From: Platycnemis pennipes
Lineage: Eukaryota > Arthropoda > Insecta > Odonata > Platycnemididae
Assembly: GCA_933228895.1 (NCBI GenBank)
Contig: OW121846.1
Span: forward strand, 51,044,107-51,108,106
DNA length: 64,000 bases
Direction: 5' to 3'
Made by a program: the position numbers and the translations under genes. The notes under the pieces are model-generated. The model saw only the letters and a list, made by a program, of their open reading frames with translations. It was not told the origin of the DNA and did no database searches. Position 1 is the first letter of the stretch, and each line of letters opens with the position of its first letter. Positions 11,901-62,149 of the stretch are shown here, piece by piece.

Positions 11901-14683
11901 GATAACATGCGTACGATACTTGAGTGCCGAGAAAAACAGACATGCCTCACTGAACCATTCACTTTTCCGTGCCTCTGGATAAACATATTCCTTTTTTTTC
12001 CCTTTTATGGCTCCGCTGAAATTTTGCAAGAAGCGTTTCCAGGTAATGCCTGTTTTAATTACAAATAAAGAAATGATCGAGCAACTGGTAAGATGAATTG
12101 TTTAACCACTTATAAAAGTTAATTGGTGATGGGAGGAAAGTGAGAAAGAAGAAAGTGGGGATGGATAATATCATCCAAAAGCCGATGGGGATATAATTGG
12201 TTTTCCGAAACCAATTTACCTCGCTAATCGTTTATTCGGGGTTTAACCTCATCTACGGAGAACACAAGTTTATTCGATTATACAGATCTCAAAAGCCATA
12301 TAACCGGAGAAATAATTGCAGATTTCTTTGCGGTCCCTTGAGTGACCAACTCTGGAATCAATCAGATTTTCTCCTTACGGTCAAGGACACGAAAGGTCCT
12401 TGCCAGAATTTGTGTTTCTACACAGTAAAACCGGAAGAAAAGGAAGAAGTATTAAATCTACACGAAGTCCACGAGGAAATTGGGTATTTATGAATGATTG
12501 TCGTGACTACGTCAAATACGCTACTGAATGTACAGGAGCATGGAAGTCGTGGTGACGGCATTTAAATCTTAAAGATAAGCCTGGTAATAATTTGTCTTGG
12601 AATCTGGATGAATGAAACCTGACCTGGGTCAAAGGTTTCCCCAGTAATACACGCCTCTGATATACACATGCGAATTTCATGTTTCTCTCACGAGGCATTA
12701 ATCTCATGAGATCCTAAATACATTTTTGGCTTATCTTTTCCCGATTACAAACAAATAAAGGCTAACTATTCTGCGGTGGTGCATGTTACAAATTATTTTT
12801 GAAGAACTTTGCTGTCAATTTTTTTTCAACAGTTTAATGCAGGAAGTGAAACTACGATACCCATGGAAGTAATAACTCCAATACATTTAGGATATATCTT
12901 ATAGTAGGCCCTTTCATAAAATTTGCTTTTGTCCACATAAGACGGTGTGAGCATTTTAAATTTTCATCATTGCATTTCCCGATGTATTTTTCAAGGTTAA
13001 TGTCTTCATTACGCTTGTGATAAAGCAAACAGTTTACTCAACATTGAATTTTCTTCCAATATAGGAATAGGCGATATACGAGACATCAAGCTATGTATAA
13101 CGTTGAACACAGGAATTCATATTTTGGAAATCAGTCTCGTAAAGGCAATTCTCGGAACAAACTAATCTGCTTGCTTAGGCAAACAAGCTCCGAAAAAATT
13201 CGCTTATTAATTGTTTAATAGATCAAAGGGTGTAAGAGCTCTCGCATCTTTCCCTTTTTTAAATCCTCTTTTCAAACACTCTTTCGTTCTTCTAGTGTGC
13301 AAATGTTCCGACGCTCATTCATCCAACTTAAAATACACATCTATCCTCTTCCCCATCGCTGATTATCCAATACTCCCTTGCTTGAAGCAATCATTGTCAC
13401 TCTAGGCAGTCGAGCTCTAAAAGTTGAAATGTGTGAGCCTTTTGAGGCATTAAGCAGGATGACATTAGAGGAAGATGCTTTATCTGCCTCAAAAACCAAC
13501 CATCCCCCCTACAAAGTGAGGGGAAGCGATAGAGGACAAGATGGTATATTGGCAAAATGTTATTGTGAAAATAGCTGGAAAAAATCAAATGGATTCACGT
13601 TAAATAAAGTAGGGGAAATACGACTGCTAGTTAAAACCTGGTGACTGAAGACAACTATCGGGGCTGGATGATATGTGGGGGAGGAAAGAAAATAAAAAAT
13701 GAAATTAATAATTGGTTTTGAAGCTAGGTATTTCATGTCATGATGGGTATCTGCCTCGATTTTCACAAAGTGAGATTTTTCAAATGTACATATATCGCTT
13801 AATACAAAGTAGTAAATTAGAAAATATGTTTGTAATATTTTTAGAACCGAATAAAACCCTAAGGAGGTAAATATCTTCACCTTTATGACACAGTGGAATA
13901 TTAATACCCGAGACATCTGATTTCAAGGCTATGTCTCGATTGCTAGAAGATATAATAGGATTTTAAGTTAAGGAACAATCACCTACATGCGACGGGTATG
14001 GAGACGTAACGAAGTATTTTTTCTGATTTGTAGCTTTTTAAAAATCTCAATTGACTTATATTTTTATACTTGGAATAATATCAGCTGTCGTAGTGTTGGT
14101 TTACCTTAAGTTGCGTGCGGAGATTTTGTCTGGAGTTAAAAGTAAAATACTCGGCAGTTAAAAGTTTAGTATTGTAAATGCATCGATTTATAAACTGTTA
14201 GTATGAACTTGAGTAATTTGCATCACGTTTTGGCTAACTTTCCTTGTGTTTGTTAATATTTATTCGGCGCAGTGAAATGCCATTTGTACTTACATCTGGC
14301 TAAAATGAAAAGTTATTGAAAATAAGTTTGATTACCATAGTTTTGTCATGCGTTTCTCGAGCTAATAAATATGGAATACATCATGCGAATTTGGTGACTT
14401 TTACTACTATGCCAAATAGTGAAAAAGATAGGCAAATATGTTATTTTAAGATTATATTTAATTATTTTAAGACTATATTTAATATTGTGGGCATCCAACA
14501 CTATTCCAAGGCTGTATTCATATTGGATAATAATTGTTGACGACATACATTCAATATACGATTTAAGTTGTCTCCAATAGGATCAATACTATTCAAATTC
14601 TGCATGAAGGATGAATTTAAAACAAAATGAGAGGAAATATTGGGAATCGTGTGACAAAATTTGTAGTTAGGATTAGCAAATGA
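8930..14683. other. AT-rich stretch, no gene recognised
   Basis: The stretch was searched for repeat families seen elsewhere in the window and for protein similarity; nothing convincing was found. Short frames (60-118 codons) at 9309, 9451, 10322, 12197 and 13560 have no recognised domains and overlap one another on both strands, which is typical of chance. Pyrimidine-rich DNA occurs at 9810-9970 and somewhat more GC-rich DNA at 10010-10330. Confidence 0.55.
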
Positions 14684-14950
14684 GGGGATCGAGTTGGTGT
14701 GGTGACTATAGTACTGGCCTCCCATCCCGAAAGCCCGGATTAAAATCCCGACTAATGCGGATTTTATTGGTGTATCAGTACTTATTTTGATGCTGCGTAG
14801 GGAGTACGTAGAGTACAGGGCTCCGTCCATTCGATTTGACGTTAAACGCTGGACCCCTTGGCGCCTTTCGCTAATGGCAGATGAATTCCAACACGGGTGT
14901 CGCTCTACTCTCCCTCCTCTCTCTGTGTCATCCTACCTTAATCCAATAAT
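14684..14950 (+). repeat. SINE-A, near full length but diverged
   Basis: It begins GGGGATCGAGTTGGTGTGG and runs through the tRNA-like head: an A-box region at GGTGACTATAGTACTGGCC and a damaged B box in GGATTAAAATCCCG. The body follows, with GTACAGGGCTCCGTCCATTCG, GACGTTAAACGCTGG and CCCCTTGGCGCCTTTCG, and a degraded pyrimidine-rich 3' part follows that. The head-to-body spacing matches the copies at 16711 and 19613. B-box damage makes pol III activity unlikely. Confidence 0.85.
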
Positions 14951-16710
14951 TCCCTTATTAAAATGTCGGAAATTTTTTTATAAGCCGGTTGCCTCCTCCG
15001 ACTACCTACTACTAAGGAAATTAGAACGGTTAATGAAATATCAGAAGATCCTAAAACATATATCTCTTTGATAAATCTTCAGGGATAACCAAGACAACAA
15101 AAGCAGCTCATCACTTAGATGTATCCCCAATCGTTGCGCCGTTTCGCTCAATAAGATCGCTTGTATAGACAATCTGTCACGTACGGCAAGAACATCAAGC
15201 GCATACTTATGCCTACACCGTCTTTCAACGGGAAAACGTATCGCTAATGGTAACTTCCAGTGCTTCGGTGCCCAAGGTGATCTCTCAAACGTTCCTTAGT
15301 GTGCCGGAGACAAAAAGTGATAACATTACGAGCGCTACGAGTGATTTGGCTCCCAGTCCCATTATTCCCGTCGATAGTTGAGAGAGCATTTCTCCTCAGC
15401 GCCTTCCTCAATCCATCTCAGTCGCGTGTGCCCTTGGAGAGAATTCCCCCTCTAGCGCCCTCAGCGGTACTTCCAAACCCCACCTTTATCTCTTTTAACT
15501 CAAGCTGCCACTGCTCCGAGACTAGAATGTCGTCTCCGGCACGGGATAGGTAGAACTTTTATTACTCGCGATGCCACTTCCCTCTTCCTGTTCATTCATT
15601 TCGTTTCCACTCACCTCAATAATTTCCACCGAAATACTTACGGCGTCAAGCAGAATGGGGCATGAAAAGTAGGAATAGCCAAAAAACTTGGCGAAATCAT
15701 AGCAAAAAACATGTGTTACATTCATCGTATTCAAAACACTACTGGAAAAATGAACTCTCTATTAGTGCATATTCATAAAAAGAGTTAGAGCTTATTCGGA
15801 GGAAATATGTGAGGTACTCTAATATTTTTAGCCAGGCCTCATTTGGAGAACAACGCTATTATATAGTACGACAGTATTATGGTATTACCTGTAATGGTGC
15901 TAGGGATTTAAATCTAATAGAAAAAATCGGATGGATATAGCTTGCAGACTATTGGTTAAACTCGACTATCACCCATTTTCAGTGAATGGAAAGTGGAGCT
16001 GTTTCTCGATGACATGATAATAATTTTTTAAATATCCGCGTATCACAGCCAATTACAAAATTCGGAAATTGTTAAAATCATAATAAGGAACGTTTAGTAA
16101 GTTTTAATATAAGGTAAACTAATCTGTATTCCAATGAAAAATGTTCCCAATTCGACGTACCCGTGCCAACTACACCTATGTATGTCTAATGTGAAGAAAG
16201 TTGGAGGAATTAAAAAAAGGTGCACTAATCAAAATAACGTCCGGTGATTTATTTGCGTGTCTCATCCATTCATATTTAACACACTTATTACGTAATAATA
16301 TGCCTTTTAATGCATGCTGAGGGATGACTCATGGCACGCCCTCGAAGTGACTTGCTAGGCACAGTGAGTATGTTGGTATGAATGAGCAGCATAACAGCCT
16401 ATCATGGTTTAGTATTATTATTCCTTAAAATGATCACCCTTTATTCACTACAAAGGAAAATGAGGAAAAGTGAAATATGTGATCATTTAATTAGGTTTAT
16501 TTTTAGGTTCATTTTTAATATACATATTTAAACTTGTTCAATTCGGCGATAATGTATTTCGATTCCTTTTTAATATGATCCATAAGCCATGTAACTGCAT
16601 AAAACCCATTGAGGTTATTGCATCCTGGGAAAAATCAACATTTTTGTCGATTCCCTATTAACTGCTAGTGAATTGTCTTAGCATTGAAATCGTGTGCTTG
16701 AGTGAAATTA
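14951..16710. other. Spacer without recognised genes
   Basis: GC content is moderate at 15100-15560, where an 84-codon frame without a recognisable domain lies on the plus strand, and the remainder is AT-rich. No repeat family from elsewhere in the window was recognised here. Confidence 0.5.
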
Positions 16711-17020
16711 GGGCTCGGGTTGGTGTGGCGGCTAGAGAACTGGTCTCCCACCACGAGGGTCCGGGTTTGATTCCCGGAAGCGGTGGATTATTCAGTGGCA
16801 AACCGATCCCTACTTGAGGGTCTAATTGAGGGCATTCCAGGTTCAGTACGCCGTCCATCAGATGGGACGTTATGCTGTAGTCCCCTTGCTGCCTGTCGTT
16901 AAAAAGAGGCTAATGCCGACACCGAATTTCTCTCCACCCTTCTTCAGTTCCCTGAAATGTTCCTACCATTACCCAACTAACTACCTATACTAAATGACGC
17001 AAATGACCGCACATGTCGAT
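16711..17020 (+). repeat. SINE-A, near full length
   Basis: This is one of the best copies. The head shows GGGCTCGGGTTGGTGTGGCG, an A-box-like GGCGGCTAGAGAACTGG and a good B box, GGGTTTGATTCCCGG. The body follows with ACCGATCCCTACTTGAGGG, TTCAGTACGCCGTCCATCAG and GATGGGACGTTATGC. The 3' region has GGCTAATGCCGACACCG, AATTTCTCTCCACCC and TTACCCAACTAACTACC. It ends near the CGCAAATGACC block and a GTCGATCG that matches the CTGTCGGT end of other copies. The intact B box makes it one of the few copies that could still recruit pol III. Confidence 0.92.
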
Positions 17021-19541: not shown

Positions 19542-19612
19542 CTGATCTATGATATATCACAAGAATCCGATCATTAACATTACTAATTCTATCAGCGGGG
19601 AACGAGAATGTC

Positions 19613-19925
19613 GGGGATCGGGTTGGTGTGGTTGCTAGAGTACTAGACTCCCATCCCGAGGGCCCGGGTTTGATTCCCGGCAGTGGCGGATTTTTCATTG
19701 GAAAACCGGTCCCCACTTGAGTGCTTATTGGAGGGCATTTCAAGTTCAGTACTCCGTCCGTCGGATGGGACGTTAAGCCGTGGTCCCCTTGGCGCCTTTC
19801 GTTACGAGTAGGCTAATGCCGACGCCGAATTTCTCTCCACCCTTCCTCCGTTCCCTGAAAACTCCTACCATTACCCAATCATCCACCTATCCTATCTGGC
19901 GCAAATGACCTCAGCTGTCGGTTGG
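19613..19925 (+). repeat. SINE-A, full-length reference-quality copy
   Basis: It runs from GGGGATCGGGTTGGTGTGG to CTCAGCTGTCGGTTGG. The head has an A-box-like GGTTGCTAGAGTACTAG and a B box GGGTTTGATTCCCGG. The body has AAACCGGTCCCCACTTGAG, GGAGGGCATTTCAAGTTCAG, TACTCCGTCCGTCGGATGGG and CCGTGGTCCCCTTGGCGCC. The 3' part has GGCTAATGCCGACGCCG, TTTCTCTCCACCCTTCC and CGCAAATGACC. It agrees closely with the copy at 61596-61946, so these two best define the family. Confidence 0.93.
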
Positions 19926-31060: not shown

Positions 31061-31250
31061 TCCCGTGAGCCTGAATTCAAATATCGGTAGTTTCGGAGCT
31101 TTTTTCTTACATGAGTGCTCCGTGGAGAGCAATTTCAGAACTGCAGTCCATCCGTCGGATGGGATGTTAAACTGTGAAACCCTTGGCACCTTTTGTCGAG
31201 AGTAGTCTAATGCCGACTCCGAGTTTCTCTGTCAGTCACCTCCCCGAATG
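31061..31250 (+). repeat. SINE-A, 5'-truncated copy
   Basis: It starts in a degraded B-box region (CCGTGAGCCTGAATTC). It continues with GAGTGCTCCGTGGAGAGC, GCAGTCCATCCGTCGGATG, GGATGTTAAACTGTGAAACC, CTTGGCACCTTTTGTCGAG and CTAATGCCGACTCCGAG. The head is replaced by the LINE-C tail at 31012-31060, so one of these two elements inserted into or recombined with the other. Confidence 0.8.
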
Positions 31251-38618: not shown

Positions 38619-38889
38619 TTTATATTGGCGTAATGCCCGGCGAGCCACCACTAGAGTATGTGTCAGGGGTGAAAGATCACCAAACATGCACTACTTACGT
38701 GCAACTAAGCTGCAATGCTACAATACTACGTGCTACAATTCTACATGCTACAATGCTACATGCTACAACACTACATAAAACAATGGTACATGCTTCAATG
38801 CTACATGTTTCAATGCTACATGCTACAATGCTTCTATATAATGAGGATATGTTAGATAAAAGTCATGTGCAACTAGATGCTTAGTCCAG
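38619..38889 (-). mobile_element. LINE-C 3' fragment carrying a minisatellite, inserted in SINE-A
   Basis: At its left end the plus strand reads GGCGTAATGCCCGGCGAGCC, ACCACTAGAGTATGTGTCAG, GGGTGAAAGATCACC and AAACATGCACTAC. This matches the minus-strand form of the LINE-C end (CATAATACCCTGCAAG, ACACCATAAAGGTGTGCGGC, AGGGTGAATTCTCACC, AAACATGCACTAC at 51244-51308). Beyond it lies an expanded 15-bp tandem array, and the split SINE resumes at 38890. It is therefore a truncated LINE-C insertion whose interior has turned into a minisatellite. Confidence 0.65.
38711..38830 (+). repeat. 15-bp minisatellite, 8 units
   Basis: Eight consecutive units of exactly 15 bp with consensus CTACATGCTACAATG and no length variation. 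The differences between units are substitutions only. Because 15 is divisible by three, the array is an open frame and reads as a five-residue periodic peptide (Met-Leu-His-Ala-Thr type). This is a by-product of the period and not evidence for a gene. Confidence 0.9.
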
Positions 38890-39000: not shown

Positions 39001-39205
39001 ATTGCCAATATTTCATATTTATTTACGTCATATTCAAATGCCTATGCCAAATACAATTCAGGGATGTATGTTTACGAGAGCTGGGCCAAGCAACAAGAGT
39101 TGGATCCCAATTATTCCACTCTTTATCAACCTTTTTGTTTTCATCCAAACGGTGAAGTATTTTTTAGCTGTATTGCCTTATTACTACCAATTCATCCGGA
39201 TGAGC

Positions 39206-39500
39206 TTGTCGTGGAGGCTAGTGTACTGGATACCTATCCCGAAGGCCCGGGTTCTAGTCAATGTCAAGGCAGATTTTCAGTGGAATCTTGCTCTCTGCTT
39301 TAGTATCGGTTGAAGAGCACTTCAAGATCAGCAGTCGGTCACTCTGATTGGTCATAGTAGATTTTATGCGATCTTTCGTTTAAATCAGGTTTATACTGTG
39401 CCGGATTTCTTTCCACCCTTCCTCCACTGATCCCATAATTCCTTCCTCTTCCCAAATTCCTTTCTATTCTGCACTGTGTGAATAACCTCAGCAATCAAGG
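39206..39500 (+). repeat. SINE-A, diverged but nearly full length
   Basis: Head: CGTGGAGGCTAGTGTACTGG and GAAGGCCCGGGTTCTAGTC. Body: AGATTTTCAGTGGAATC, GAGCACTTCAAGATCAGC and AGTCGGTCACTCTGATTGG. Its 3' part has GCCGGATTTCTTTCCACCC, TTCCTCCACTGATCCC and AATAACCTCAGCAATCAAGG. All blocks are in order. The B box is damaged. Confidence 0.8.
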
Positions 39501-42152: not shown

Positions 42153-42690
42153 CTTCATCTACATATACATAATACCCTGCAAGTCATGAGGAAGGTGTGT
42201 CAGGGGATGAATTCACACCAAACATGTATTATGTATAATGTTAAAAATAGATTAGTAATCATATTCTAGTCTAAACTTCACAATTTAAAATATATATACA
42301 CATAAAAATATCAAAGGAAGCATGCAAAAATATGCAAGCATGCATGTTAATTGGGTTAGCTTAATGTCCTTATACCAGCATGCAACTACACATGCTATCT
42401 ATTGATACAATTGCATTTATACTATTGGATATATTTAAAGATATTCATGTCCCTAAATTTACGAGGAAAGAAGGACATTTTGAACCTGTGAGTTCGGCAA
42501 TTAATTTACTTAATTTTATGATTATGGTACAGTCTACCACAGTAAGTTGGAGTTCGCACAATATGTTTAACGTCATCAGCGAAAATATTACCTTGGGATT
42601 TATTTAAGAGAATGATACTAAATTTAAACTTACGGCTTGGCATTGAATCCAATTTAAGATCATCTAATAGACTGGTTACGCTGATATAAA
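42153..42690 (-). mobile_element. LINE-C, 5'-truncated copy (RT C-terminus and 3' UTR)
   Basis: On the minus strand the order is a degraded coding region, the motif RTHRFKMSFFPRKFRDMN (encoded by complement 42444-42497), a 3' UTR, and a terminal CTTGCAGGGTATTATG-type sequence with a TGTAGATG tail at 42153-42170. An R-x-x-x-K-x-S-F-F-P-R-x-x-R-x-W/M-N string is typical of the C-terminus of Jockey/CR1-like reverse transcriptases, which supports the orientation. A second copy at 50655-51320 aligns along the whole length, including DDVK and LNK-Q motifs upstream. In-frame stops and frame changes show it is dead. Confidence 0.75.
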
Positions 42691-45033: not shown

Positions 45034-45592
45034 TTGGCGGTTGACGGTTTTCACGGGATCTGTGGATATAGTTCATCTCCGTCTTTCACGGGACGGTTTT
45101 CACGGGATCAATCAATTGACGGTTGGCCACCGTAGTGGTGAGCACCCTTCATTGGCCTATCCAGAGTAAATCGATGTCTTTTTTTTATTTTCTATGGATA
45201 ATATGCTATGTTTGGGTAAATATTGCTTGCTTATGATTGGTGTGAGACAGAACTTCCTATACAAAGTGCGCTTTCCATTATTTACACAGACTTTTTTGAA
45301 AGTATAGTTAAAGCCACTCATTGTATAAGTTTGGAATTCAGAGTATATGTAAATTTTGTAATAACAATTTAAAAACGAATAATTACCAGGAGTAAAGCGA
45401 TATCTGACAAGGGGAGTGTCCGAGTTCCGGGTCTAGGATTTTGACGAAATTTGCCAGGCAGGTAGTCCTTGATGAGTTATTTACGAATCACCCCCCATAT
45501 AGGGTTATATATCCAGAAACTTCGTCAAAAAACGAGTTTGAAATATTTGATTGCTAATATAAAGCCAATAATTAGCCGTATATAATCAGTGC

Positions 45593-45660
45593 AGTTTGGG
45601 TTAGGGGTAGAGTATTCGCTTCACAATGTCGACGTTCCTAGTTCGAGACTCTTCGAGTCC
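45593..45660 (+). repeat. tRNA-like module in left foldback arm
   Basis: AGTTTGGGTTAGGGGTAGAG resembles a tRNA acceptor, D-arm and A-box region. TTCGCTTCACAATGTCGA occupies the anticodon-arm position, and CTAGTTCGAGACTC the B-box and T-arm position, ending at GAGTCC. The length is right for a tRNA but the acceptor and anticodon stems are poor. An inverted copy lies in the right arm. Probably a captured tRNA-like sequence rather than a functional gene. Confidence 0.45.
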
Positions 45661-45755
45661 AATTTTTTTTTCATCGCAATTTCGTCGTACGACTTTCCCT
45701 GGTTTTACATATTTTTAATCTGTTTACCCGGGATGCATTTTAACTATTTTACATA

Positions 45756-45835
45756 ATAATTACGTAATTTGCTAAAATTACGTAATTAGTACCTAAAATA
45801 GTTAATTACGTTATTTACCTAAATCACGTAATTAG
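45756..45835. promoter_or_regulatory. Cluster of ACGTAA-type palindromic sites (left arm; mirrored in right arm)
   Basis: ATTACGTAAT occurs at 45759-45768 and 45777-45786, TTACGTTA at 45806-45813 and TCACGTAAT at 45824-45832. The same set is mirrored at about 46482-46561. TTACGTAA is the established consensus for PAR-type and C/EBP-type bZIP proteins. The spacing is irregular and the function is untested; the cluster may equally be a transposase-binding region. Confidence 0.35.
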
Positions 45836-46656
45836 TACGCGGCGGAATTACTTCCGCACGCCCTGTCGTTTTTTTTGCATGAAATTAACGGAATAGCATA
45901 AAGTGTGATCGTGATTTTGAATTTCCGTATCTTTGGCCACGCAGTCCCGACGCACGTACAACGCTTGTTCTAATTCGCCTGGTGCCGTGATTTTCCAGCG
46001 CTGTGCTTTTTTGGAAAAACTAATCGCAAGAGAAAAAAAGAACTTAAGCTCTGTAATCATATAATTGTAAGTGTCTACCGAAATTTTCGGGTGATCGGGC
46101 GAAATATTCGGGTGAGAGAGAGTTTCGAATCAAGGACGTCGCTTGGAAATTGATAAAAAACCAACGGTAACAATTAATTTTGAAGAATTAATGCATTGCA
46201 CCTTTTCAGGAGCATGTTAGAATCACCCGAACATTTCGGTAGACATTTACAATTATATGATTACAAAACCTAAATTCTTTTTTTCTCTTGCGATTAGTTT
46301 TTACAAAAAAGCACAGCGCTGGACAATAACGGCACCAGGCAAATTAGAACAAATGTTGTACGTGCGTCGGGACTGCGTGGCCAAAGATACGGAAATTCAA
46401 AATCGCGATCACACTTTATGCTCTTCCGTTAATTTCATGCAAAAAAAACGACAGGGCGTGCGGAAGTAATTCCGCCGCGTACTAATTACGTGATTTAGGT
46501 AAATAACGTAATTAACTATTTTAGGTACTAATTACGTAATTTTAGCAAATTACGTAATTATTATGTAAAATAGTTAAAATGCATCCCGGGTAAACAGATT
46601 AAAAATATGTAAAACCAGGGAAAGTCGTACGACGAAATTGCGATGAAAAAAAAATT

Positions 46657-46724
46657 GGACTCGAAGAGTCTCGAACTTGGAACGTCGACATTGTGAAGCG
46701 AGTACTCTACCCCTAACCCAAACT
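46657..46724 (-). repeat. tRNA-like module in right foldback arm
   Basis: This is the mirror copy of 45593-45660, differing at only two positions: ACTCGCTTC in place of ATTCGCTTC, and TTCCAAGTTCGAG in place of TTCCTAGTTCGAG. The change places AAGTTCGAGACTC at the B box. Both arms would direct any pol III transcription inward, toward the loop. Confidence 0.45.
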
Positions 46725-46915
46725 GCACTGATTATATACGGCTAATTATTGGCTTTATATTAGCAATCAAATATTTCAAACTCGTTTTTTGACGAAGTTT
46801 CTGGATATATAACCCTATATGGGGGGTGATTCGTAAATAACTCATCAAGGACTACCTGCCTGGCAAATTTCGTCAAAATCCTAGACCCGGAACTCGGACA
46901 CTCCCCTTGTGAGAT

Positions 46916-50628: not shown

Positions 50629-50713
50629 AGTGCGTGTGTATCTGTGTGTGTTTGCATATGTACTCAATCAGTCTATTAAATGAATTAAATTGAGAATCAT
50701 TGTCAGATAGCAG

Positions 50714-50856
50714 TAAAGGTAGTTGTTTCAGGCTTGATTTGGTGGAATATCATAGCGAAAGAAAATGGTGTCACCTGAAGATGGTGTTGTACACCGAAAC
50801 CGGTCAAATTAAATATCTTTATTTTTGTGGAAAATTGCCATTTTTTCTTTCGTTTC
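50714..50856 (+). mobile_element. 143-bp insertion with 12-bp target duplication and hammerhead-like core
   Basis: The segment is bounded by an exact direct repeat, GTCAGATAGCAG, at 50702-50713 and 50857-50868. The paralogous LINE-C copy reads straight through this point (junction near 42638-42643), so it represents the empty site. Within the insertion, CGAAAGAAAATGG (50756-50768) and CCATTTTTTCTTTCG (50838-50852) are complementary apart from two bulged bases and enclose the hammerhead-like motif. No protein is encoded. Variable-length target duplications and hammerhead motifs are known in Penelope-like elements, which makes a Penelope-derived or retrozyme-like fragment the leading inference. 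Confidence 0.7.
50775..50805 (+). ncRNA. Hammerhead-ribozyme-like core motif
   Basis: The order of conserved hammerhead elements is present: CTGAAGA (50775-50781, matching CUGANGA), a four-pair stem II GGTG/CACC (50783-50786 with 50792-50795) with a five-base loop, GAA plus the paired A (50796-50799), a self-complementary ACCGGT at 50799-50804 in place of stem III, and C at the cleavage position 50805. Stem III would have no loop, so it could form only between two molecules or in a dimer. The bases flanking the core do not form a normal stem I. Catalysis is therefore uncertain. Confidence 0.45.
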
Positions 50857-51305
50857 GTCAGATAGCAGGTTGAAAATTAGACCTAATCCCTTAAACAAAT
50901 TCCAAGACCATATTTTCAGTGATGATGTTAAATATATTTTCAAACCCCAGCTTACTATGGTAGAATGGACCATAATAACAAACTTAGAGAAATTGATTGC
51001 CGAACTGACAGATTCAAAATGTCTCTTTTTCCTCGTACAATTAGGGATATGAACACCGGTAAATATATCCAATACGAGTGTAGCAATGGATAACATTGGT
51101 AGCTGCATGCTGGTATAAGGACTTGAAGCTAACCCAGCTAACAGCATGTTTTTGCATTTTTGCTTTGCTATTTTTATCTTTTTTAAATGGTGAAGTTTAG
51201 AACAGTATATAAATAGTTAACTTTTTTTTAATTATGATGTGTAGTGCATGTTTGGTGAGAATTCACCCTCTGCCGCACACCTTTATGGTGTCTTGCAGGG
51301 TATTA

Positions 51306-61583: not shown

Positions 61584-61958
61584 AACGCGTTCGGTTGGTT
61601 GGTTATTTAGGGGAGGCGACCGACAGCTGGGGTAATTTGCGCCATATAGGATAGATGGATAATTGTGGTAATGGTAGGAGCTTTCAGGGAACGGAGGAAG
61701 GGTGGAGCATAGATATACAAAAGGGTGGACCCGGCGTCGGCATTAGCCTACTCCTAACGAAAGGCGCCAAGGGGACCACGGCTTAACGTCCCATCCGACG
61801 GACGGAGTACTGAACTTGAAATGCCCACCACTAGGCACTCAAGTGGGGACCGGTTTTCCACTGAAAAATCCGCCACTGCCGGGAATCAAGCCAGGGCCTT
61901 CAGGATGGGAGGCCAGTACTCTAGCCACCACACCAACCCGATCCCCAACACGTTCGGT
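61584..61958 (-). mobile_element. SINE-A, full length with 12-bp target duplication
   Basis: The SINE spans 61596-61946 and is bounded by AACGCGTTCGGT (61584-61595) and AACACGTTCGGT (61947-61958), which differ at one position. On the minus strand it starts GGGATCGGGTTGGTGTGGTG, has an A-box region at GGCTAGAGTACTGGCC and a B box GGCTTGATTCCCGG with one change from the GGTTTGATTCC form. All body blocks follow, through GGCTAATGCCGACGCCGG and GCGCAAATTACCCCAGCTG, and the copy closes with a CTAAATAACCAACCA tail. The tail type and direct repeats indicate LINE-mediated retroposition. Confidence 0.94.
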
Positions 61959-62149
61959 CATTCCCTACAAAGAGTAAGCTTTCAATGCTGTTTTAAAAAA
62001 CTTTGGCATTTCAATACTGAATATGTTGAAACTCTGTTTGTTGAATCGTTTAACATCAAAAAGTAACCGCATGGTGATAAATAAAACCTGGGACATTTCA
62101 GCGTGTAGAACTTTATCAAAATACAACCAATTTCGTATCACGGAAAGAG
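61959..62149. other. Spacer between SINE and LINE remnant
   Basis: Short AT-rich spacer. Nothing recognised. Confidence 0.4.

Follow-up and report, generated by a model that had tools for sequence, protein, structure and literature searches.

A 143-bp insertion in the damselfly Platycnemis pennipes is best read as a leader-only product of a Penelope-like element, probably made by two-sided priming

The systems closest to the insertion described here are Penelope-like elements (PLEs), whose reverse transcriptases (RTs) share ancestry with telomerase RTs (PMC3846280). Pen2a_Av of Adineta vaga has duplications of 8-10 bp and a 31-bp tail that is optionally present on one inverted pLTR, and antisense self-priming has been favoured as the source of inverted PLE repeats (Arkhipova 2013; PMC3846280). 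With PAc (Poseidon_Ac) of Anolis, ATT (5'-ATT-3') was the commonest cut on each strand in vitro, and both strands were extended (PMC11167929). The PAc hammerhead needs its protein, and its cleavage is dispensable for insertion in vitro; the PLE steps from cut target to finished insertion were described in that study as "yet to be validated" (PMC11167929). Minimal PLE hammerheads without helix III are also known (PMC6155905).

The damselfly family shares with Pen2a_Av the order pLTR-ORF-pLTR with an adjacent inverted pLTR, and short duplications (PMC3846280). Unlike Pen2a_Av as described there, it has mostly 12-bp duplications, an AAY-N12-RTT-like target and leader-only copies that dominate our sample; the tail, optional in Pen2a_Av (PMC3846280), was counted here as one per insertion in 28/28 pairs. 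It resembles PAc in having two adjacent candidate RT start sites near the ORF start, the interval between them being the tail, and in a preference for ATT on each strand with apparent extension of both strands (PMC11167929). The positions differ: PAc initiates most often 111-118 nt into the ORF (PMC11167929), whereas the proposed damselfly sites lie just before the ATG and at about +42.

The insertion lies in a 64,000-nt stretch of contig OW121846.1 (forward strand, 51,044,107-51,108,106), hereafter the window. By direct reading, an exact 12-bp repeat, GTCAGATAGCAG, directly bounds 143 bases at 50714-50856 (Table 1). The host sequence is a LINE fragment. A minus-strand copy of this LINE about 42 kb into the window can be aligned on both sides of the insertion point, lacks the insert, and reads GGATTCAATGCCAAGCCG across it, the reverse complement of the letters quoted in the preliminary description. 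Both the exact target duplication and the claim of a real insertion with an empty site in the same window were thus borne out.

The two halves of the insert correspond to the two ends of a PLE that can be seen in longer copies. In reverse complement, the outer 42 nt match the opening codons of the ORF of a full-length relative, L079; this ORF-start segment is the "tail" of the PLE literature. Next to it stands a short inverted arm where sister copies have longer ones. The complementary arms of 13 and 15 nt noted previously, CGAAAGAAAATGG and CCATTTTTTCTTTCG, are present, but they are remains of the inverted PLE 3' end rather than a hammerhead stem, the 13-nt one being this inverted arm. The direct arm begins just upstream of the predicted RNA start. 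Judged by its sequence, the insert is best understood as a PLE insertion made up of leader only.

Table 1. Features of the 143-bp insertion and of its empty-site relative in the window
Feature	Position	Strand	Basis or remark
Left target-site duplication, GTCAGATAGCAG	50702..50713	.	Direct reading
Tail: initial ~42 nt of the PLE ORF in reverse complement	50714..50755	-	Match to L079 ORF start
Start site 2 of reverse transcription, at the outer end of the tail	50714..50755	-	Proposed
Short inverted arm: final 13 nt of the PLE leader (pLTR 3' end) in reverse complement	50756..50768	-	
Junction of the two cDNA arms, 2 nt outside either arm	50769..50770	.	Direct arm begins at pLTR position 55
Direct arm: PLE leader, beginning at pLTR position 55 and ending at start site 1 (...TTTCTTTCG)	50771..50852	+	
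Core letters resembling those of a hammerhead, CTGAAGA...GAAACCGGTC, with stems off register	50775..50805	+	Rfam negative
Extra TTTC after start site 1, also in L019, L023, L024, L027 and L079	50853..50856	+	
Right 12-bp target-site duplication	50857..50868	.	Direct reading
LINE fragment without insertion (empty-site relative)	42153..42690	-	Alignment

The full-length copy L079 measures about 3.35 kb, has a 13-bp duplication and ends as the short copies do. Its order is tail and inverted pLTR, direct pLTR, ORF and 3' pLTR, with pLTRs in both direct and inverted orientation and the tail on one end. The passage from leader to ORF reads ...TTTCTTTCG CT ATG ATA TTC CAC CAA.... The L079 frame is uninterrupted over 839 aa from stop to stop and matches RVT_1 at 1.5e-13. 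A search with the L079 protein gave 734 relatives at E <= 0.001 among 7992 scored. Among the relatives listed, most carried PF00078, PF28514 and PF26215 were mostly present, and some carried PF01541 (GIY-YIG); those listed relatives that covered 93-99% of the query carried PF01541. Pfam made no GIY-YIG call on the L079 protein, and the assignment of this region rests on motif and relatives. The open frame of a further copy, L019, carries GVYEIKCDCGAKYIGQTG, which we take to be the GIY...YIG motif, and similar sequence was found within a long inverted repeat in L024. The earlier suggestion that the insert might be "very short Penelope-derived" DNA was correct in that its sequence is that of the ends of a PLE with an RT and a GIY-YIG-type region. 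Viral contigs were also searched for relatives of the PLE protein, with no match.

The family is large. The genome searched was a 1.79-Gb assembly of 88 contigs. One of its nuclear COX1 copies, translated with the invertebrate mitochondrial code, showed 98% identity to Platycnemis phyllopoda over 444 residues, which points to a platycnemidid damselfly as the probable host. A first search with the insert gave 1775 candidate places, of which 40 were scored, with 47 matching stretches among those listed. A 41-nt pattern spanning the boundary of tail and leader had 1375 matches with <=3 mismatches, a number that includes internal copies inside long elements, against 0 for a reversed control. The 26-nt leader end alone had 829 matches (<=2 mismatches), and a 33-nt pattern joining the leader end to the start of the tail had 355 (<=1 mismatch). 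Many copies with the same ends and different 12-bp duplications were found, as the preliminary description had proposed for a mobile family.

Examination of 92 loci yielded 71 unique insertions in which both ends and a repeat could be identified, these being the insertions at which our script detected any repeat. Nine loci (L041, L052, L061, L074, L078, L083, L086, L087 and L099) are outside this set since one or both ends were absent from the fetched stretch, or the script found no duplication. Three of them, L041, L052 and L099, have two arms and gave no repeat by script; at L041 a second direct arm led the script to the wrong place, and at L099 the right flank lay outside the fetched stretch. 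Eleven of twelve loci with near-identical flanks and L036, which is the same place as L024, were removed before counting. The head-based sample comprises 70 of 100 places listed out of the 1375, two already-fetched places being passed over; taken in list order from the first contigs and by exact match, it favours young copies.

The twelve loci with near-identical flanks (L031, L045, L049, L058, L064, L066, L067, L069, L076, L081, L090 and L096) contain the same PLE foldback and represent one insertion inside another, later multiplied repeat. Elsewhere, same-orientation leader ends at G000:C2:58592864, 58595823 and 58598784, spaced 2959-2961 bases apart, probably mark a tandem PLE array.

The usual copy consists of the reverse-complement tail, an inverted leader of variable length, a junction and a direct leader of variable length. 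Among the head-based insertions with both ends and a repeat, 45/49 measured <=270 bp. The target duplication score was >=9.5 in 70/71 unique insertions but in only 1/710 mispaired controls, in which the left and right flanks came from different insertions. The commonest duplication length was 12 bp (36/71). In events with a 12-bp duplication, AA occupied -3,-2 in 22/35 (background 0.12) and TT occupied +2,+3 in 14/35 (background 0.106). This pattern in the sequences fits a target site of roughly AAY-N12-RTT that would be cut in the same way, N↓RTT, on each strand, leaving 12-nt 3' overhangs. The motif was less clear among longer duplication calls, partly as such calls extend into chance matches. 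The right half-site was weaker than the left (14 versus 22 of 35, Fisher p 0.09), and the difference in strength between the half-sites (p 0.09 and 0.14) is suggestive only. Each arm reads as an antisense cDNA attached to the strand whose 3' end bears the duplicated 12 nt, which is the outcome predicted by priming from both 3' ends.

We think it probable that the 143-bp insert was made by two-sided target-primed reverse transcription of PLE leader RNA. The PLE RNA would start ~31 nt downstream of the TATA box of the pLTR and run through the hammerhead-like leader into the ORF. A GIY-YIG-type endonuclease would cut both strands of the target at N↓RTT with a 12-nt stagger that leaves 3' overhangs, and both free 3' ends would prime reverse transcription inside the RNA. 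One would do so at start site 1, just before the ATG, and yield no tail; the other would do so at start site 2, ~42 nt into the ORF, and yield the tail. Each cDNA would reach the RNA 5' end or stop before it. The two antisense cDNAs would then be joined 3' end to 3' end, and fill-in would give a head-to-head foldback with a 12-bp duplication. With a read-through RNA of tandem units as template, one arm could include the ORF, giving a classical full-length PLE with an inverted pLTR. The layout of the copies, their duplications, the target motif, the single tail in the tested pairs, the clusters of arm ends and the variants common to both arms are read from sequence; where the RNA starts, how each strand is primed and how the cDNAs are joined are what we infer.

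The distribution of tails was determined by scoring 100 listed places with an exact leader 3' end (26-nt pattern) for continuation into the tail, and by pairing opposite-strand neighbours within 5 kb (n=28). By exact pattern, 25/28 pairs had exactly one tail (probability 1.4e-5 if the ends were independent with equal odds); three of these 25 pairs were fetched, and a mutated tail at other untailed ends is possible. The remaining three pairs proved one-tailed on reading, bringing the count to 28/28, for which chance would be 2^-28. At L020 the tail is present as a 1-base variant; at L079 the second pair member is an internal leader, and the true right end is without a tail; at L100/L101 the tail on one side is mutated. 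For the other 44/100 listed leader ends, no exact match stood on the opposite strand within 5 kb, and these lay outside the test; 32/44 carry tail letters. Tail letters after the untailed arm were found in 0/73 events read, these events having been chosen by their tailed end.

The one-tail rule seen in the tested pairs bears on the possibility of copy-back, in which one cDNA or antisense RNA folds back, primes itself and copies itself into an inverted arm. Self-priming of this kind has been argued from palindromic junctions (PMC3846280). With the untailed arm as template, it cannot give a 42-nt tail; with the tailed arm as template, it should give two tails, against one tail in 28/28 pairs. 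The presence of the 42-nt tail on one arm only thus excludes simple snap-back copying of the other arm. Nor does copy-back need a target marked at both cuts.

The points at which arms stop were examined with a 140-nt leader query, the expectation being that of uniform ends. Of 108 head-based arms measured, 10 spanned the whole query and were left out. An excess of ends was seen at pLTR 50-58 (38/98, 7.2 expected), at 59-67 (17/98, 7.2 expected) and at 102-107 (20/98, 4.8 expected). No excess was seen at the hammerhead cleavage site, 88-92 (1/98 against 4.0 expected). The sequence TATATATA begins at pLTR 26, and A57 is 31 nt downstream of its start. RNA synthesis usually begins about 31 nt downstream of a TATA box. 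Given this spacing, the main stop is best read as the RNA 5' end, a position predicted from that of the TATA box. The excesses at 59-67 and 102-107 count against two-sided priming.

The 102-107 cluster lies away from both the predicted RNA start and the hammerhead cleavage site, and it usually affects both arms at once (L033, L037, L044, L050, L057, L073, L075, L094 and others). A pause of the RT at the base of the offset stem I was considered for this cluster and rejected, in that RNAs starting at ~57 would lack most of the 5' strand of the stem.

Classified by insertion (n=51), both arms stopped at 50-67 in 22, both at 102-110 in 9 and both upstream of 50 in 6, the other 14 being mixed or elsewhere. 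The two arm ends of an insertion are correlated (Spearman 0.70). Where one arm was longer by >=5 nt, it was the left in 8/51 and the right in 19/51. Over 62 events, 72 arm variants were shared between arms and 65 were discordant, against means of 25.7 and 131.6 for shuffled pairs (200 shuffles). Part of this sharing may arise from subfamily membership alone. Variants rare in the set (<=3 events) were common to both arms in 9/62 events, and it is therefore probable, judging by these variants, that both arms had a single RNA, or RNAs of common origin, as their template.

Correlated arm ends and shared variants would be equally expected from copy-back, and in this they count against two-sided priming. 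That either arm can be the longer counts against copy-back, which we regard as unlikely. Three observations together favour two-sided priming: a single tail per insertion, a target motif with two sides, and arms that differ in length in both directions.

The insert had also been suggested to be a retrozyme-like mobile RNA. On such an account, a short RNA that self-cleaves or circularises is mobilised in trans as a self-propagating miniature element, which would be in keeping with the many short copies that have the same ends. Metazoan retrozymes are likewise short, AT-rich, non-coding inserts with hammerhead letters and duplications (PMC7229834). Unlike the retrozymes described there, the damselfly copies read are not tandem apart from extra arms in L041 and L046, have no canonical hammerhead and differ in their junctions (PMC7229834). 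Among 47 short head-based events, left-arm end, right-arm end and overlap were combined in 41 different ways, and among 63 short events there were 61 distinct interior strings, point changes counted. Such differing junctions suggest that the short copies arose separately from the parent PLE and were not copied from a single small master.

Some junctions nevertheless recur at different sites, as would be expected of a miniature element. L002 and L003 share a junction, and four junction classes recur (10/47 events): L029/L092, L037/L073/L094, L048/L084/L097 and L062/L089. Three of the four have overlaps of 2-16 nt, and microhomology may therefore have drawn independent events to one joint. From their junctions, most short copies look independent; a few may have been re-mobilised. 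Tandem copies had been proposed as support for a ribozyme-processed element, and the only extra arms in the sample are the additional direct or inverted leader arm of L041 and of L046, which suggest template jumping.

The hammerhead itself was examined in the same connection. The conserved core letters of hammerhead ribozymes are CUGANGA, GAAA and UH. These letters are present in the insert, a point in favour of the miniature element; the pattern CTGAAGA...GAAACCGGTC had a single match in the window (0.03 expected from shuffled sequence), and the letters are intact in 38/47 right arms reaching that region. The hammerhead order of the core reported previously is therefore present and its GGTG/CACC stem is real, but that stem is one base off the hammerhead register. 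Stem II is shifted by one base, with 2/7 pairs in line. In stem I, 0 of the first 4 pairs were in line in all 5 stretches checked; it pairs only with a 4-nt bulge in L019 or past a 4-base mismatch in L079, and the 143-bp copy is without the upstream strand that could have made the offset stem I. Rfam found no hammerhead in the window at gathering scores, nor in the insert region or a full-length relative with permissive filters. The leader fold was no more stable than shuffles (z -0.10). A canonical hammerhead was rejected, the stems not being joined to the core in register and Rfam giving no match.

The arrangement is reminiscent of the minimal type I PLE hammerheads, with core letters in the pLTR and no real stem III (PMC6155905). 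It differs from those described there in that stem I pairs only beyond unpaired bases, stem II is off by one and there is no Rfam match. Self-cleavage by the 143-bp insert is not likely, to judge by its sequence; by analogy with related elements, the parent PLE may have protein-assisted hammerhead activity. With 41 different junctions among 47 short events, arm ends at the cleavage site in 1/98, stems out of register and no Rfam hammerhead, we find a retrozyme-like or other self-propagating miniature element quite improbable. Hammerhead-like letters in a repeat need not imply a ribozyme-driven element.

Two further explanations concern the inverted arrangement of the arms. In LINE-1 twin priming, both cut strands can prime on the RNA. 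An ordinary event of this type, with the second cut strand priming wherever chance places it within the same RNA, yields a single duplication-flanked insertion whose left part is inverted and whose right part is direct. It is a near neighbour of the two-sided model. In the damselfly copies read, by contrast, the arms begin at two fixed adjacent sites and overlap, two-strand priming appears to be the rule, and most duplications measure 12 nt, both cuts being marked. Chance twin priming therefore seems to us very improbable. A DNA transposon with inverted terminal repeats (MITE) would likewise have inverted arms and a near-constant duplication length; against this, the ends are not mirror images, given the single tail, arm lengths vary between copies, and the tail is the ORF start of a family member that has an RT and a GIY-YIG-type region. 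We give this last explanation almost no credence.

More generally, we lean towards the view that PLEs integrate by obligate two-sided target-primed reverse transcription at a symmetric cut staggered by 12 nt, with one strand always primed at site 1 and the other always at site 2, that leader-only foldbacks are the main product, and that the RT may reiterate CTTTCG. If this is true, every PLE insertion is a fusion of two cDNAs, and the inverted pLTR and single tail, long called optional oddities, are a direct outcome of insertion; the two-sided model would thus offer an explanation for the inverted pLTR. A search of the available text of PMC11167929 found no mention of target duplications or inverted pLTRs, and in that respect a joined, two-ended product extends that work. 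A literature search for the two-sided PLE model found no other paper, an earlier version being possible in Craig 2021 and in Cervera & de la Pena 2014. The genome is a large natural record, holding many short and fairly fresh insertions in which cDNA ends, cut sites and junction can be read. The mechanism can thereby be put as predictions open to counting: one tail per insertion, a symmetric 12-nt cut, arm ends at the RNA start and no hammerhead-cleaved ends.

The possible reiteration is drawn from additions at the untailed end. Extra TTTC after TTTCG was found in L001 (the 143-bp insert in the copy list) and in the five copies named in Table 1. Extra CTTTC or CTTTCG was found in L029, L044 and L047, and CTTTCG TTTCGG in L089. 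The additions in L028 and L098 are ambiguous, as the duplication overlaps them. Most of the 71 insertions show no such addition, 21 having none and 30 having a repeat that overlaps the end. From these few cases, the RT may copy a 6-nt template (CTTTCG) repeatedly as it initiates, much as telomerase does, and the shared ancestry of PLE and telomerase RTs makes this worth considering.

Several other repeats were observed. A large young palindrome occupies 45402-46915 of the window; its 694-nt inverted repeat shows 98% complementarity across a spacer of 126 nt, and its inner repeats are rich in TTACGTAATT. A dispersed repeat occurs at 130-175, 14683-14905, 16708-16957, 19600-19860, 31109-31230, 39195-39277 and 61729-61959 (-), its copies being 60-93% alike over matched stretches; its start, GGGTTTGATTCCCGG, is box-B-like and resembles a tRNA-derived SINE. 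A 15-bp tandem repeat (CTACATGCTACAATG-like) at 38705-38843 has 7 overlapping copies in register. Elsewhere in the genome, many copies or fragments of mitochondrial COX1 lie on chromosome-size contigs, two of them nearly full length.
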